This document shows, in pieces, positions 1,437-5,498 of a stretch of 5,498 nt of DNA. Origin of the DNA: an uncultured Faecalibacterium sp. (GTDB taxonomy: Bacteria; Bacillota; Clostridia; Oscillospirales; Ruminococcaceae). Under the pieces are notes generated by a model. That model made no database searches. It saw only the letters and a list, made by a program, of their open reading frames with translations, and had not been told where the DNA came from. The stretch lies in the NCBI GenBank assembly GCA_934525325.1, contig CAKSZE010000079.1:1-5498 (forward strand), written 5' to 3'. How positions within the stretch are numbered: position 1 is the first letter of the stretch; every line of letters begins with the position of its first letter. A program made the position numbers and the translations under genes.

Positions 1437-1447
1437 TCCGCACACTG

Positions 1448-1483
1448 AGAACCGTACCCGTGACCCCGGGTGCGGTTCTTTTT
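1448..1483 (+). terminator. Intrinsic terminator of the HU-type gene
   Basis: The stem AGAACCGTACCC pairs with GGGTGCGGTTCT (one T-G wobble) around an 8-base loop, followed directly by a T-run ending at 1483. It lies 11 bases after the stop codon. Next to it, CTTGC-GT-GCAAG (1485-1496) forms a small separate palindrome. Confidence 0.88.
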
Positions 1484-1499: not shown

Positions 1500-1545
1500 A
1501 CGATTTGGAATGCCCTCCGCGTTGCTCTGGGCATAATCAGCGGAA
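1500..1545 (+). repeat. Left inverted arm of the 333-bp element
   Basis: Of its 46 bases, 41 pair with the right arm at 1786-1832 in blocks of 21, 11 and 9 bp. A 3-against-4 base internal loop and a 2-against-2 mismatch separate the blocks. Further inward both arms are AT-rich and only loosely complementary. Confidence 0.85.
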
Positions 1546-1559
1546 TTTTATTATAATTT

Positions 1560-1595
1560 GCGATTCGGGAAAATCTGCGGATTTTCCCGAATCGC
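1560..1595. repeat. Perfect 16-bp hairpin, loop TGCG (left half of element)
   Basis: GCGATTCGGGAAAATC (1560-1575) pairs without mismatch with 1580-1595 around the loop TGCG. CTTTTC follows, so a transcript could also terminate weakly here. Confidence 0.85.
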
Positions 1596-1616
1596 CTTTT
1601 CACGGGGAGGGCCGTA

Positions 1617-1661
1617 AAGGTAATCGGCATTTGCTTTTTGTCCCACTGAAAAAATGACCTT
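1617..1661. repeat. Imperfect AT-rich hairpin within the element
   Basis: AAGGT (1617-1621) pairs with ACCTT (1657-1661), CATTT (1629-1633) pairs with AAATG (1652-1656), and TTT then pairs with AAA further inward, with asymmetric loops. An alternative pairing uses GGGAGGG (1605-1611) with CCTTCCC (1658-1664), so this region could switch between folds. Confidence 0.5.
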
Positions 1662-1664
1662 CCC

Positions 1665-1697
1665 GCAGTGCCGCGCTTCCGCAGGAAGCGGCACTGC
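1665..1697. repeat. 14-bp hairpin with one bulge, loop GCA (centre of element)
   Basis: GCAGTGCC (1665-1672) pairs with GGCACTGC (1690-1697). After a 2-base bulge (GC), GCTTCC (1675-1680) pairs with GGAAGC (1684-1689) around the loop GCA. Confidence 0.8.
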
Positions 1698-1733
1698 AAT
1701 ACCGTTTCCCGTCACGACCCCTGCTGTGAAGAT

Positions 1734-1769
1734 GGAATATCGGAACGCCCGCAGGCGTTCCGATATTCC
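1734..1769. repeat. Perfect 16-bp hairpin, loop CGCA (right half of element)
   Basis: GGAATATCGGAACGCC (1734-1749) pairs without mismatch with 1754-1769 around the loop CGCA. This loop is the reverse complement of the TGCG loop in the left hairpin. Confidence 0.85.
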
Positions 1770-1785
1770 GAAATTTAAAATCATT

Positions 1786-1832
1786 TTCCGCTGAAAATGC
1801 CCAGAGCGCAAGCGGAGGGCATTCCAAATCGT
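1786..1832 (-). repeat. Right inverted arm of the 333-bp element
   Basis: Reverse-complement partner of the arm at 1500-1545. The outermost 21 bases (1812-1832) are a perfect match. It ends 41 bp before the -35 box of the helicase promoter. Confidence 0.85.
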
Positions 1833-1873
1833 CCTGCCCTGCGTGCGGCGCATGGCATCTTTTTGTTTCTCTG

Positions 1874-1902
1874 CTGACAAGCGCGGCATTTCATGCTATA
1901 CT
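1874..1902 (+). promoter_or_regulatory. Sigma-A type promoter of the DEAD-box helicase gene
   Basis: The -35 box CTGACA (1874-1879, 5 of 6 matches), a 17-bp spacer and the -10 box TATACT (1897-1902) preceded by TG at 1894-1895 make a strong extended promoter. Transcription should start near 1909. The leader of about 37 bases is too short for a cold-shock-type structured leader. Confidence 0.82.
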
Positions 1903-1945: not shown

Positions 1946-3133
1946 ATGCTTTACAGCGAGTTGCAGTGCAGCGAAGCCATCCACAAGGCTGTGGAACGCA
2001 TGGGCTTTGCCGAAATGACCGAAATTCAGGAAAAGACCATCCCCCTCATGCTGGCAGGGCATGATGTCATTGCCAAGGCACCCACCGGCACCGGTAAGAC
2101 CTGTGCCTTTGGCATCCCGGTGGTGGAGCATATCCAGCCGGAAAATAAATACCCGCAGGCCGTCATCATGGCACCCACCCGGGAGCTTGCTCAGCAGATC
2201 GCCGAGGAGCTGACCAACCTTACCTACTTTATGCCCGAGGTGCAGGTGGCCTGCGTGTACGGCGGCGCCAATATGGAAAAGCAGGCAAAGCGTCTGGCGG
2301 AGGGCTGCCAGATCGTGGTAGCCACGCCGGGACGGCTGATGGATCACTACAAGCACCACAGCATCGATATCTCCCATGTGACCCAGATCGTGCTGGACGA
2401 AGCCGACGAGATGCTGAACATGGGCTTTTATAAGGATGTGCGCCACATCATCGAGATGATGAAGGCGCGCAAGGCGCTGTCCATGTTCTCTGCCACCATC
2501 AGCCGCGAGGTGATGGATATCGGCTGGCTGTACCAGCACAACGCCGAGGAGATCACCGTGCAGCCCCGGGAGGAGAGCCAGCCCAAGATCACCCAGTATA
2601 TGCTGGAGACCTCCGGCCGCAACAAGCTGTCGGATCTGGCACAGATCATCATCGGCGAGGGCTACAAGCGGGTGATGGTGTTCTGCGATACCAAGTTCAA
2701 CACCGCCACGCTGGCAAACCAGCTGGCACGGCTGGGCTTCTCGGTGGACTGCCTGCACGGCGACCTCTCCCAGAAGGAGCGCAACCAGATCATGCAGGCC
2801 TTCCGGGATGGCAAGCTGGCCATTCTGGTGGCTACGGACGTGGCCGCCCGCGGCATTGACGTCTCGGACGTGGATGCTGTCATCAACTACGATGTGCCCA
2901 GCGAGAACGAGCACTACACCCACCGCATCGGTCGCACCGGACGCGCGAAAAAAGAGGGCGTGAGCTACCTGTTCTATGTGCCGGAGGAGAAAAAGCGTGT
3001 GCAGGAGCTGCTGCGCCTGACCCGCAACACCGACCTGTGCACCCCGGTGCACTTCGACTTCAACCACGAGCATATCGTGGTGGAGAAAAAGCAGGACAAC
3101 GCCGACCGTTTCCAGATCAAGTGCTATTTTTAA
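1946..3133 (+). CDS. DEAD-box ATP-dependent RNA helicase, minimal core form
   Basis: This cytoplasmic enzyme unwinds short RNA duplexes or remodels RNA-protein complexes using ATP. Likely roles are ribosome assembly, RNA decay or cold adaptation, as for the DeaD/CshA/RhlE families. All core motifs are intact: Q motif (F21 to Q28), Walker A APTGTGKT (45-52), Ia PTRELA (77-82), GG (106-107), Ib TPGR (127-130), II DEAD (151-154), III SAT (182-184), IV VMVFCDT (243-249), V ATDVAARGID (296-305) and VI HRIGRTGR (326-333). Only about 60 residues follow motif VI, and they lack the basic, Gly-rich or DbpA-type RNA-binding tail common in bacterial members, so target choice probably depends on partners. 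The ATG at 1946 fits GGAG at 1934-1937 (8-base spacing) and a normal domain start. The gene is monocistronic. The exact subfamily cannot be assigned from sequence alone. Confidence 0.96.
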   Translation: MLYSELQCSEAIHKAVERMGFAEMTEIQEKTIPLMLAGHDVIAKAPTGTGKTCAFGIPVVEHIQPENKYPQAVIMAPTRELAQQIAEELTNLTYFMPEVQVACVYGGANMEKQAKRLAEGCQIVVATPGRLMDHYKHHSIDISHVTQIVLDEADEMLNMGFYKDVRHIIEMMKARKALSMFSATISREVMDIGWLYQHNAEEITVQPREESQPKITQYMLETSGRNKLSDLAQIIIGEGYKRVMVFCDTKFNTATLANQLARLGFSVDCLHGDLSQKERNQIMQAFRDGKLAILVATDVAARGIDVSDVDAVINYDVPSENEHYTHRIGRTGRAKKEGVSYLFYVPEEKKRVQELLRLTRNTDLCTPVHFDFNHEHIVVEKKQDNADRFQIKCYF

Positions 3134-3242: not shown

Positions 3243-3896
3243 ATGAAGATCAACGAAGTGGAAGCCGCCGTCGGCGTGACCAAAAAGAACATCCGCTTTT
3301 ACGAGGAAGAGGGGCTCATCAGCCCCAGCCGGGAGCCGGGCAACGGCTACCGCAGCTACTCGCAGGCGGATGTGGAGCGCTTGCGCCGCATCAAGCTGCT
3401 GCGCAAGCTGGACGTGCCGCTGGCAGAGATCCGGGAGATGCTGGAGGGGCAGCGCACGCTGGCTGAGGGCATGAGCCAGCAGCTGGAACGTCTGCGCAGC
3501 CGCCGCGCCGACTTGGAAGAAGCAATCGGTTTCTGCACGCTGCTGCAACAGGAGAACGGCCCTCTGGAACAACTGGATGTGGAGCAGACGCTGGCGCGCC
3601 TGACCGCACGGGAAGAACAGGGAGTGACTTTTGTGAACATTGAACGGACCGACCAAAAGACCCGCCGCATCCGGGGCGCCTGCATCGGTGCCGCCCTTTT
3701 TGTGACCATGATGGCTTTTGTAATGGCTATCATGGGCTGGGCAATCTACACCGACCCGCAGGATGCCCCGCCGCTGCCGCTGCTGGTGGTGATGTTCGGC
3801 ATCCCGGCGGGCTGCATCGTGGGCACCCTGAAGGTGCTGCTGGATCGGATCGAAGAGATCGGAAAGGGAGAAGAAGATGCTTATCGTAACTATTAA
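3243..3896 (+). CDS. MerR-family transcriptional regulator with two C-terminal transmembrane helices
   Basis: The N-terminus is a clear MerR winged helix: residues 1-70 include the helix-turn-helix (MKINEVEAAVGVTKKNIRFY), the wing (GLISPSR..GNGYRSYS) and the second helix pair (VERLRRIKLLRKLDVPLAEIREMLEG). Residues 72-105 are a probable dimerising coiled coil. Instead of a metal- or drug-binding domain, residues about 145-169 and 177-200 form two hydrophobic helices joined by a short loop (TDPQDAPP), with a charged tail to residue 217. The protein is predicted to be membrane-anchored with its DNA-binding end in the cytoplasm. Cysteines occur only at 98, 147 and 191, so no CueR-like metal-binding pair is evident. 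The start has AGGAGG 12 bases upstream. It heads an operon, overlapping the next gene by 20 bases, and its promoter carries a MerR operator. It probably senses a membrane-associated signal. The inducer is unknown. Confidence 0.93.
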   Translation: MKINEVEAAVGVTKKNIRFYEEEGLISPSREPGNGYRSYSQADVERLRRIKLLRKLDVPLAEIREMLEGQRTLAEGMSQQLERLRSRRADLEEAIGFCTLLQQENGPLEQLDVEQTLARLTAREEQGVTFVNIERTDQKTRRIRGACIGAALFVTMMAFVMAIMGWAIYTDPQDAPPLPLLVVMFGIPAGCIVGTLKVLLDRIEEIGKGEEDAYRNY

Positions 3897-4188
3897 CGAG
3901 ATCCCGGGCAAAAAGCTGGAGGCGCTGGGCGTGGTGCGGGGTAGCACGGTGCAGAGCCGCAACCTTGGCCACGACATGATGGCCGGTTTCCGCACCCTTG
4001 TGGGCGGCGAGGTGACCGACTACGCCGATATGCTCACCGAAGCGCGGCAGATCGCCACCGGACGCATGGTCAAGGACGCCGAAGGGCTTGGCGCAGATGC
4101 CATTGTGGGGATGCGGTACGCCTCTGCCAGCGTCATGCAGGGCGCGGCAGAGGTCATTGCTTACGGAACGGCGGTGAGATTCATATGA
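3877..4188 (+). CDS. YbjQ/UPF0145 family protein (putative heavy-metal-binding domain)
   Basis: A 103-residue protein covering the whole UPF0145 (DUF74) family, whose E. coli member YbjQ has about the same length. The family is annotated as heavy-metal-binding by structure, but no biochemical role is firmly established; members are thought to form pentamers. Visible family features are a beta-rich start (MLIVTINEIPGKK), GVVRGSTVQSRNLGHDMMAGFRTLVGG-type central sequence with G35-like glycines, the helix EARQIATGRMVKDAEGLGAD, and the closing strand VIAYGTAVRF. There is no signal peptide or membrane segment, so it is cytoplasmic. The start ATG lies inside the 3' end of the regulator gene, with GGGAG at 3866-3870, and its stop overlaps the next start. 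Translational coupling and context tie its job to the membrane regulator and protease homologue beside it. Confidence 0.93.
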   Translation: MLIVTINEIPGKKLEALGVVRGSTVQSRNLGHDMMAGFRTLVGGEVTDYADMLTEARQIATGRMVKDAEGLGADAIVGMRYASASVMQGAAEVIAYGTAVRFI

Positions 4189-5093
4189 CAGCAAAAGAAA
4201 AACAGAGTTTCGGTCTGTACTTTTTGTTCGCCTTCGGCACGGCATGGCTGTGTCAGGTGGGCGGCTGCATGGCGCTTTTGCAGCAGAATAACGCGGTGCT
4301 GTATCAGCTGGCGCTCATCGTTACCATGTTCTGTCCGCTGCTGGCTGTACTGCTGGTGCAAAAGGCCTTTCTGCGCCAGCCCACCGGCATCGGCTGGAAG
4401 GTGCAGGGCAAGCGGCGGTTCTGGCTGGCGGCATGGTTCGGCCCGGCAGTGCTCACCCTGCTGGGTGCAGTGCTGTATTTTGCCGTGTTCCCCTCCCGGC
4501 TGGACTTTTCCTGCAGCTGGCTGGTTGCCGCCTACGGCGGCGAGATGGACGCCCAGACCCTGCGCAGCGAGCTGGGTGTTTCTACCCTCAGCTATCTGTT
4601 GCAAAACGGGCTGTTTGCGGTGCTCCTTGCCCCGGCCATCAATATGTTCCCCGCACTGGGCGAGGAAGTCGGCTGGCGTGGCTACATGATGCCCCGCCTG
4701 AAGGAGCGGTTCGGTCTGCTGAACGGCCGTCTGCTGGGCGGCGTTGTGTGGGGCATCTGGCACTGGCCGCTGATGCTGCTGGTGGGCTACGAGTACGGCA
4801 CCAACTACTTAGGCGCACCCCTGCTGGGTCTGGTGGTGTGGTGCGTGGTCTGCTTTGCCCTCAACACCCTGTTGGATATCCTCTACGAGAAAACGGAGTG
4901 CATCTGGGTGCCTGCCATTGCGCATGGAGCATTCAACGCCATTGCGGCGCTGCCGCAGGTGCTGGTCACCCCGGCAGATGCTTATTATAATGTACTGGGT
5001 CCCATGCCCATTGGTCTGATCGCTGCGCTGCCGATGCTGGCGGCAGCGGTCTGGCTGACCCTGCGGGAAATGAAGCAGGAAGAAAAGAACTGA
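4185..5093 (+). CDS. CPBP family intramembrane metalloprotease homologue (Abi/CAAX-protease type)
   Basis: A 302-residue polytopic membrane protein with about seven or eight hydrophobic segments (roughly 10-30, 40-58, 78-101, 138-156, 183-201, 209-231, 243-258 and 272-293). It has the conserved active-site motifs of the CPBP (Rce1-like) family: EEVGWR at 160-165 (E160, E161, R165), H193 in WGIWHWP, and H247 with N251 in HGAFN. All putative metal-binding or catalytic residues are present, so it may be active. Bacterial members have been linked to bacteriocin self-immunity, prenyl-protein-like processing and envelope maintenance, but most have no known substrate. The start ATG overlaps the preceding TGA (ATGA at 4185-4188), implying translational coupling. 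It is the last gene of the operon and is followed by a strong terminator. Proteolysis of the membrane-bound regulator encoded first in the operon is a conceivable role, but only an inference. Confidence 0.93.
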   Translation: MTAKEKQSFGLYFLFAFGTAWLCQVGGCMALLQQNNAVLYQLALIVTMFCPLLAVLLVQKAFLRQPTGIGWKVQGKRRFWLAAWFGPAVLTLLGAVLYFAVFPSRLDFSCSWLVAAYGGEMDAQTLRSELGVSTLSYLLQNGLFAVLLAPAINMFPALGEEVGWRGYMMPRLKERFGLLNGRLLGGVVWGIWHWPLMLLVGYEYGTNYLGAPLLGLVVWCVVCFALNTLLDILYEKTECIWVPAIAHGAFNAIAALPQVLVTPADAYYNVLGPMPIGLIAALPMLAAAVWLTLREMKQEEKN

Positions 5094-5245: not shown

Positions 5246-5274
5246 TTGCAAAAGTAGTTGCGGTATGGTACTAT
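5246..5274 (+). promoter_or_regulatory. Tandem promoter P1, probably of a stable-RNA operon
   Basis: The -35 box is TTGCAA (5246-5251), the spacer is 17 bp, and the -10 box is TACTAT (5269-5274). The start is expected near 5281, right at the small dyad AGCGC-CAA-GCGCT (5280-5292). A-tracts lie immediately upstream. Confidence 0.75.
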
Positions 5275-5431
5275 ATGTGAGCGCCAAGCGCTGAGACAAA
5301 AGAATGACTTCTGAAGTCCCAGCAGGAAGCCCTTGAAAAGAACCAATAGACGCTGAAAAGTTCCGGTTAGCACCGAGAAACTTAAAGCGCTCCAAGTTCA
5401 CAAAACTTCAAAAGCTTCTCAAAAAAAGTGC
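5275..5431 (+). promoter_or_regulatory. Structured untranslated leader between the two tandem promoters
   Basis: No gene is seen here. Dyads include AGCGC-CAA-GCGCT (5280-5292), GACTTC-T-GAAGTC (5306-5318), a two-part stem AAGTT/AACTT (5358-5362 with 5379-5383) topped by CGGT-TAGC-ACCG (5364-5375), and AAGTT-CACAA-AACTT (5394-5408). A-runs at 5402, 5410 and 5421 precede P2. Such a leader fits rRNA or tRNA operon upstream regions. Confidence 0.5.
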
Positions 5432-5460
5432 TTGACAAAAAACCGCTTCTGTGGTAAAAT
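5432..5460 (+). promoter_or_regulatory. Tandem promoter P2, near-consensus, probably of an rRNA or tRNA operon
   Basis: The -35 box TTGACA is perfect (5432-5437), the spacer is 17 bp, and the -10 box is TAAAAT (5455-5460, 5 of 6 matches). A 7-A run lies 4 bases upstream of the -35. The strength, tandem arrangement, and absence of an obvious ribosome binding site or start codon before the window ends favour a stable-RNA operon. A highly expressed protein gene further downstream is not excluded. Confidence 0.82.
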
Positions 5461-5470
5461 AATCAAGTCG

Positions 5471-5486
5471 TCAGCCGCAAGGCTGA
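5471..5486 (+). other. GCAA-tetraloop hairpin at the start of the P2 transcript
   Basis: TCAGCC-GCAA-GGCTGA is a perfect 6-bp stem with a GNRA tetraloop, beginning about 4 bases after the expected P2 start near 5467. It may protect the 5' end or belong to the processing or antitermination leader of the downstream operon. Confidence 0.6.
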
Positions 5487-5498
5487 GGCGCACAGGAC

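Follow-up and report, generated by a model that had tools for sequence, protein, structure and literature searches.

The 333-bp block between positions 1500 and 1832 of the window (the whole stretch of 5,498 nucleotides analysed here) belongs to a dispersed repeat, of which it is one copy. This repeat has an end motif, ACGATTTNNAATGNNCTCCGC, that was found at up to two mismatches 38-116 times in 8 of the 31 genomes of the genus and 0-5 times in the other 23, and the reversed pattern, used as a control, gave 0-1 matches per strand in the same 31 genomes. A non-autonomous, REPIN/MITE-like fold-back element is the best reading of the block. Our fuller proposal, in which we place about as much belief as doubt, is a gene-free fold-back repeat that is likely moved in trans, has its stems kept perfect by template switching, and acts as a two-way terminator.

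The repeat copy in the window

The helicase protein of the window is 100% identical to those in L001-L003, and the window is thus Faecalibacterium DNA. The repeat block lies between the genes for HU and the DEAD-box helicase and has at each end a module with a stem-loop (H1) and a hairpin (H2). In the following list, A1 is an alignment of such ends, R1 a covariance model of them, and the strand is given where a feature has one.

1-918: end of the gene for the carbamoyl-phosphate synthase large chain (Pfam)
1134-1436: HU gene (Pfam)
1447..1480, + strand: intrinsic terminator hairpin of the HU gene, the upstream border of the insertion; 14 pairs and a T-rich tail, kept in L001-L003 and L005
1477..1484: TCTTTTTG, left copy of an 8-bp direct repeat bordering the insertion, from sequence comparison with the empty sites L001, L002, L003 and L005
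1485..1865: inserted segment relative to relatives, 381 bp with the right TCTTTTTG copy counted in
1500..1832: repeat element proper, exactly ACGATTT...AAATCGT, from inverted repeats, folding and genome matches; both end modules found by R1
1500..1601, + strand: left end module (end motif, stem-loop H1, AT-rich spacer, hairpin H2, TTTTC tail), aligned in A1 and scoring 107.8 bits with R1, which was built from 43 ends including both window ends and does not score these independently
1510..1534, + strand: left stem-loop H1 (ATGCCC...GGGCAT); A1 helix 1, with 99.6% of cells paired and double changes in 3 of 6 pairs
1560..1595, + strand: left hairpin H2, 16 bp, loop TGCG, followed by CTTTTC; A1 helix 3, with double changes in 15 of 16 pairs
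1665..1697, + strand: central GC-rich hairpin, also in half-length copies; arms 1665-1674/1688-1697, 10 bp, 100% paired, similar in L092, L096, L100 and others
1728..1832, - strand: right end module, built like the left one on the opposite strand; 111.8 bits with R1, likewise not an independent score
1734..1769, - strand: right hairpin H2, 16 bp, with loop TGCG and then ATCTTC on that strand (repeat search; A1)
1797..1822, - strand: right stem-loop H1, planned as on the left (from sequence)
1858..1865: TCTTTTTG, right copy of the direct repeat, from sequence comparison with the empty sites
1874..1902, + strand: sigma-70-like promoter of the DEAD-box helicase gene (CTGACA-17-TATACT), just outside the insertion and identical in sequence in relatives
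1946-3133: DEAD-box helicase gene (Pfam)
3243-3896: MerR regulator gene (Pfam)
3877-4188: YbjQ gene (Pfam)
4185-5093: CAAX-type protease gene (Pfam)

The original prediction of a block with perfect 21-bp inverted ends and two perfect 16-bp hairpins agrees in position with our repeat search. The outer arms (1497-1520/1812-1835, 24 nt) are 96% complementary, being perfect over 1500-1520 and 1812-1832, the inner arms (1524-1562/1769-1807, 39 nt) are 79% complementary, and the hairpins at 1560-1595 and 1734-1769 each have 16 bp, 100% paired, around 4-nt loops. The claim that this much pairing is beyond chance was also borne out, as the folding energy of 1490-1845 was -192.8 kcal/mol on the + strand against a shuffle mean of -109.1 (z -15.5) and -207.9 kcal/mol on the - strand against a mean of -113.0 (z -17.3), and none of the 100 shuffles on either strand folded as well.

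The empty sites in L001, L002, L003 and L005 read GGTTCTTTTTG joined to TTTCTCTGCTG, and the window has an additional 381 bp that ends with a second TCTTTTTG. The window copy is an insertion relative to these four relatives, adjoining the HU terminator. The predicted extent of the element is exact for its core, 1500-1832, and falls short of the segment inserted relative to relatives, which covers 381 bp from 1485 to 1865; the 8-bp direct repeat at 1477-1484 and 1858-1865, which borders the insertion, went unnoticed in that prediction. The element had no BLAST match in 80 helicase loci, some of which are too short to reach the upstream gap. We also observed a different, GAGGGAG-rich repeat at the HU terminator in L004 (about 4825-4930), the same place as the element of the window, and, farther along the window, an AT-rich leader-like region at 5265-5498, where a strong sigma-70-like promoter (5432-5460) stands at the edge of the window and what it drives lies beyond.

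A dispersed repeat built from end modules

On the complete chromosome G001, 122 end motifs were found at up to three mismatches, as against seven for the reversed pattern, and among the 197 family genomes drawn only G001 (105) and G006 (5) exceed four end motifs. A BLAST search with the block returned 70-75 matches per genome in four genomes and 0-2 per genome in eight more, with at most 40 first-look candidates scored per genome and with several matches possible from one copy. The block is not a single copy devoid of homologues and covariation. The top-scoring copy pairs among the 69 G001 ends compared show 90-93% identity over about 180 nt, with shorter stretches of up to 97%, and no very recent burst of copies is seen among these ends. 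A phage or plasmid origin was considered and rejected: none of 72,556 plasmid records matched, and the 20 matching phage records out of 50,697 are all unannotated human faecal contigs of 4.0-11.7 kb. The exact end motif occurs in seven IMG/VR contigs, two of which (L232, L233) have strong model matches, and the copy in L233 lies beyond a serine-recombinase gene, likely in the host flank.

The copies are one-ended, two-ended (264-652 bp in the fetched G001 loci) or shorter, and their constant unit is an end module of about 105 nt, made up of the end motif, H1, an AT-rich spacer, H2 and a T-rich tail ending in C. H1 follows the pattern ATGNNC...GNNCAT, and H2 is a 16-bp hairpin with the loop TGCG. 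We examined the 69 G001 ends that lie in fetched loci, out of 122 in the genome. A 6/6 H1 stem, in several sequence types, is present in 54 of them, and H2 with at most four mismatches in 50, of which 35 are perfect; these comprise 34 distinct hairpins, with the loop TGCG in 48 of the 50. The remaining 19 ends, without a scored H2, carry other modules, insertions or variants.

Unlike H1 types stand at the two ends in seven of the eight two-ended G001 copies from fetched loci that have both H1 intact (L113, L121, L135, L137, L138, L147 and L150), and the same type only in L128. Going by H1-type frequencies, about a quarter of random end pairs would be expected to match, so the unlike ends show a lack of constraint and not avoidance. 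The conserved unit is each end, and not the long end-to-end pairing; the long perfect terminal repeat of the window comes from two ends with one H1 type in common. Long perfect terminal pairing is accordingly not a feature of the family.

Other sequences interrupt the module at several loci. A nested sequence beginning GAGCTTGTCGGGGCAAAGCCCC, or a variant of it, lies either way round inside the H2 loop at L136:1230-1330, L140:770-860, L082, L204 and L238, and a second repeat therefore seems to target that loop. A shared module beginning GGGTTGCGGCACCCAGCATCCGC interrupts H1 of several ends (L115:2998-3130, L141, L150, L203), and a 93-bp insertion 16 bp before the end motif (L210:1044-1138) is found in G013 and not in G001 at that site. 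We also considered a pseudoknot in the end module, with CCGC...GCGG crossing H1, and rejected it: it shows no double changes in A1 and frequent mismatches in 70 distinct ends, and RNAalifold favours the inner pairs 21-28/22-27 over it.

Presence in strains, possible mobilisation and known repeats

Of 11 sites that are two-ended in G001, 10 lack the element in G002, where the flanks overlap or lie no more than 37 bp from each other; in G013, seven of the 11 carry end modules, three carry other repeats and one carries nothing. The presence of the element is polymorphic between strains, with empty sites both for the window copy, in the four relatives named above, and for the G001 copies, in G002. 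On our proposal, the repeat would spread by transposition or copying in trans by some enzyme, and not only by recombination of its flanks. We tentatively entertain, as a possibility, a selfish repeat that would be recognised by the shape of its hairpins and not by their sequence, whose 16-bp stems would drift and be re-perfected arm-to-arm, and which would flip by strand switching.

An unlikely alternative is that presence, absence and mosaic copies arise only from homologous recombination of the flanking genes, the repeat itself now being immobile. A target duplication of constant length was not found (8 bp in the window, loss of 1 bp at L136/L196, none or unclear at the other sites), the sequence beside the ends often differs as well, and there are no near-identical full copies among the G001 ends compared, all of which would fit such recombination; however, at the window site and at L136/L196 little other than the element itself has changed, which argues against it.

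We recognised no transposase or recombinase in four G001 intervals of 1.5-3.8 kb that separate facing ends, a selection made from 100 of the 122 ends. The genes in these intervals are those of a lipoprotein-like transporter component (from ORF translation), an Na/Pi cotransporter, a PTS and CstA, along with several ORFs without a Pfam match. The suggestion of a non-autonomous MITE-like or REPIN-like repeat is upheld by the many copies, the empty sites and the mosaic copies; with no transposase recognised in those intervals and no consistent target duplication across sites, a MITE in the strict sense is unproven. Like bacterial MITEs, the repeat has terminal inverted ends, no recognised coding capacity, a high copy number and empty sites in relatives; unlike them, it has no consistent target duplication, the two ends of one copy often differ, and no parental IS was found in the four G001 intervals.

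REPINs are inverted doublets of palindromic REPs that form hairpins, as described in PMC3116915, and the repeat resembles them in being an inverted doublet of hairpin-forming palindromes at high copy number. This would suit a REPIN-type element moved by a RAYT or IS200-like Y1 transposase that acts on single-stranded hairpins, an idea to which we give little weight. Y1 matches over the whole domain occur in G001, G002, G004 and G013, and none in the repeat-poor G005-G007; against this, the only Y1 match of G013 has an internal stop codon, the repeat-rich G003 (66 ends) has a short remnant only, and the repeat-poor G008 and G009 have partial matches. A RAYT gene flanked by the repeat was not found at 13 Y1 loci in the 10 genomes searched, within about 1.5 kb on each side, where one end (L223) was detected by the end-motif scan, one H2 (L226) by the hairpin scan, and the element in L216 by reading. 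The product of the Y1 gene examined in L216 is IS200-like, these Y1 copies have IS ends of their own, and the copies that touch the repeat (L216, L223, L226) look like insertions into or beside it. IS200 was thus rejected as the main mobiliser. As a separate observation, IS200-like copies lie after a terminator-like T-run (L216, L222), after H2 and its tail (L223), and as a fragment inside an element (L226), and in L216, L217, L222, L223 and L226 they are placed as if a hairpin with TTTTC were an IS200-like target.

REPINs are the closest of the known systems in behaviour, and membership fails on RAYT. As with REPINs, the Faecalibacterium repeat is dispersed, gene-free and of high copy number, with inverted palindromic ends that fold back and with many single ends. 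However, its end modules are about 105 nt with two hairpins, and not short REPs, whose cores carry a GTAG or CGTC tag; two-ended copies are 264-652 bp with mosaic interiors, no RAYT lies beside the ends at the 13 Y1 loci examined, and the stem sequence varies widely between copies. BOX, RUP and NEMIS/Correia are clade-restricted, modular, hairpin-forming repeats between genes. The present repeat is likened to them by description only, and its marks are the flipped interiors and the free drift of a perfect 16-bp stem. We found no account of such a Faecalibacterium repeat family in the open-access literature searched, which is not all literature.

Stem changes, flipped hairpins and a possible role in termination

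A1 consists of 43 ends, namely 41 of the 50 G001 hairpin ends, selected to have no more than one mismatch and a normal spacer, and the two window ends. In it, 98.1% of 1161 pair cells are paired, compared with 34-43% in slid controls, and 246 cells show double changes, compared with a shuffle mean of 69.5 and with none of 500 shuffles reaching 246. Double changes occur in 18 of 27 pairs, with only three cells changed on one side and four G-U cells among the 1161. The number of further pair types, 39, is attained in 54 of 500 shuffles and so lies within their range. The wider, 50-hairpin set of 800 cells contains 772 Watson-Crick, 5 G-T and 23 other cells. The check for covariation proposed for the block found it within the end-module stems H1 and H2 (A1). 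The idea of the whole block as one large structured RNA finds no support, since end-to-end pairing varies among copies and the covariation lies inside the end modules with almost no G-U.

We also think it improbable that the end modules belong to a functional structured RNA that is selected for pairing and carried on the repeat. The strong covariation in H1 and H2 and the TGCG loop in 48 of 50 hairpins would agree with such an RNA. G-U pairs, however, are commoner in RNA families than the 4 in 1161 cells of the filtered set and the 5 in 800 of the wider one; the two end modules of a copy lie on opposite strands, facing one another, a high copy number is limited to one clade, and no Rfam family reaches its gathering threshold in the window, where the only match to the block is GA-cis at 21.9 bits as against 34.7.

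In 13 of 20 orthologous hairpin pairs the stems are identical, and in one of these (L125/L186) the loop is inverted from TGCG to CGCA while the stem is unchanged; the other seven pairs show six one-sided and 11 double changes, ten of the doubles coming from two whole-hairpin swaps. Nine sites have at least one H2 that different strains have in common or carry in near-identical form. Three of these (L121, L138 and, on near-identical hairpins, L137) show the hairpins on opposite sides and six (L128, L135, L235, L150, L113, L114) on the same side, with a single shared hairpin at L150, L113 and L114 and a common one at L150. The hairpin GTAAATCGGGAAAATC of L121 is on opposite sides in different strains, including G001 and a 2.99-Mb contig of G023, and since G001 is a complete chromosome, draft assembly is not the cause there. 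The same holds between strains for GCATTTCAGCCAAGCC at L138, and each of these two hairpins is found at one place only among 40 fetched G001 loci. At L137, hairpins with one pair differing in each are swapped and the end markers agree, and the apparent flip there rests on near-identical, not unique, hairpins. Interiors at L121, L137, L115 and L119 (in one of two strains) resemble other G001 copies more closely than the one at their own site, and what looks like inversion can therefore come from replacement or independent insertion. The inversions at L119 and L115 are ambiguous for us, and we rejected a count of five inverted sites in favour of those with support from hairpin identity.

Least probable is an inverton, whose interior would be flipped, in the manner of a switch, by a dedicated recombinase that recognises the end motif. 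The flipped sites do have 260-570 bp enclosed by inverted ends of about 21 bp, in both orientations between strains, with hairpins on opposite sides at three of nine sites and an exchange within AATG at L137. Unlike in invertons, exchange points vary by site; the flip at L138 is not reciprocal and leaves one side with an extra end, and 122 end motifs lie on one chromosome. The main text of an inverton survey (PMC11892184) does not contain the word prausnitzii.

Of single processes, template switching between inverted arms would most simply account for stems that are perfect whatever their sequence, for double changes that involve no G-U, and for inverted loops and flips. In our proposal, the copying of one stem arm from the other would give rise to compensatory changes and flips. 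Template switching is described as homogenising the arms of inverted repeats and inverting the spacer (PMC8604942), and as able to fix and maintain hairpin stems (PMC8794818). A flip of several hundred bases by this process would be an extrapolation, as the spacer inversions described in the parts of these two papers drawn on here are of a few bases only (PMC8604942, PMC8794818).

The third part of our proposal concerns transcription, where H2 with its short T-rich tail may stop transcripts entering from either side. Such two-way termination would explain copies at the 3' ends of genes and, at one site, in place of a plain terminator. Ends lie directly after a called stop codon in L113, L119 and apparently also L235, where the element occupies the spot that in L301 and L292 is taken, between the flanking genes, by a terminator hairpin. 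Terminator-like hairpins occur within 70 nt outside 22 of 69 ends and in 172 of 2000 random 70-mers, random positions being a weak control because gene 3' ends are rich in terminators; when the same flanks are read on the other strand, the figure is 20 of 69. Against such a role, H2 is followed by only a short T tail and was not picked up by the terminator scan. Rough ORF calls place 37 of 57 G001 elements outside ORFs, and those that contain the other 20 are likely often spurious. A preference for convergent genes was considered and rejected, as 14 of the 37 elements are convergent against a background of only 22 gene pairs (6 convergent) from rough ORF calls.

Faecalibacterium is a major genus of the human gut. 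With 38-116 end motifs in each of eight genomes, stems that change in a near-wholly Watson-Crick manner and hairpins that have swapped sides at some orthologous sites, the repeat could make template switching countable in natural bacterial genomes. If the tentative reading of a selfish repeat recognised by hairpin shape were true, roughly a hundred ends in each genome would be a record of template switching in a gut bacterium. As its hairpins differ between copies and are still almost perfectly paired, the family would lend itself well to studying how palindromes are kept perfect when DNA is copied. It also carries a warning that covariation alone is no proof of a functional RNA, as the compensatory change seen here may stem from a mutation process.
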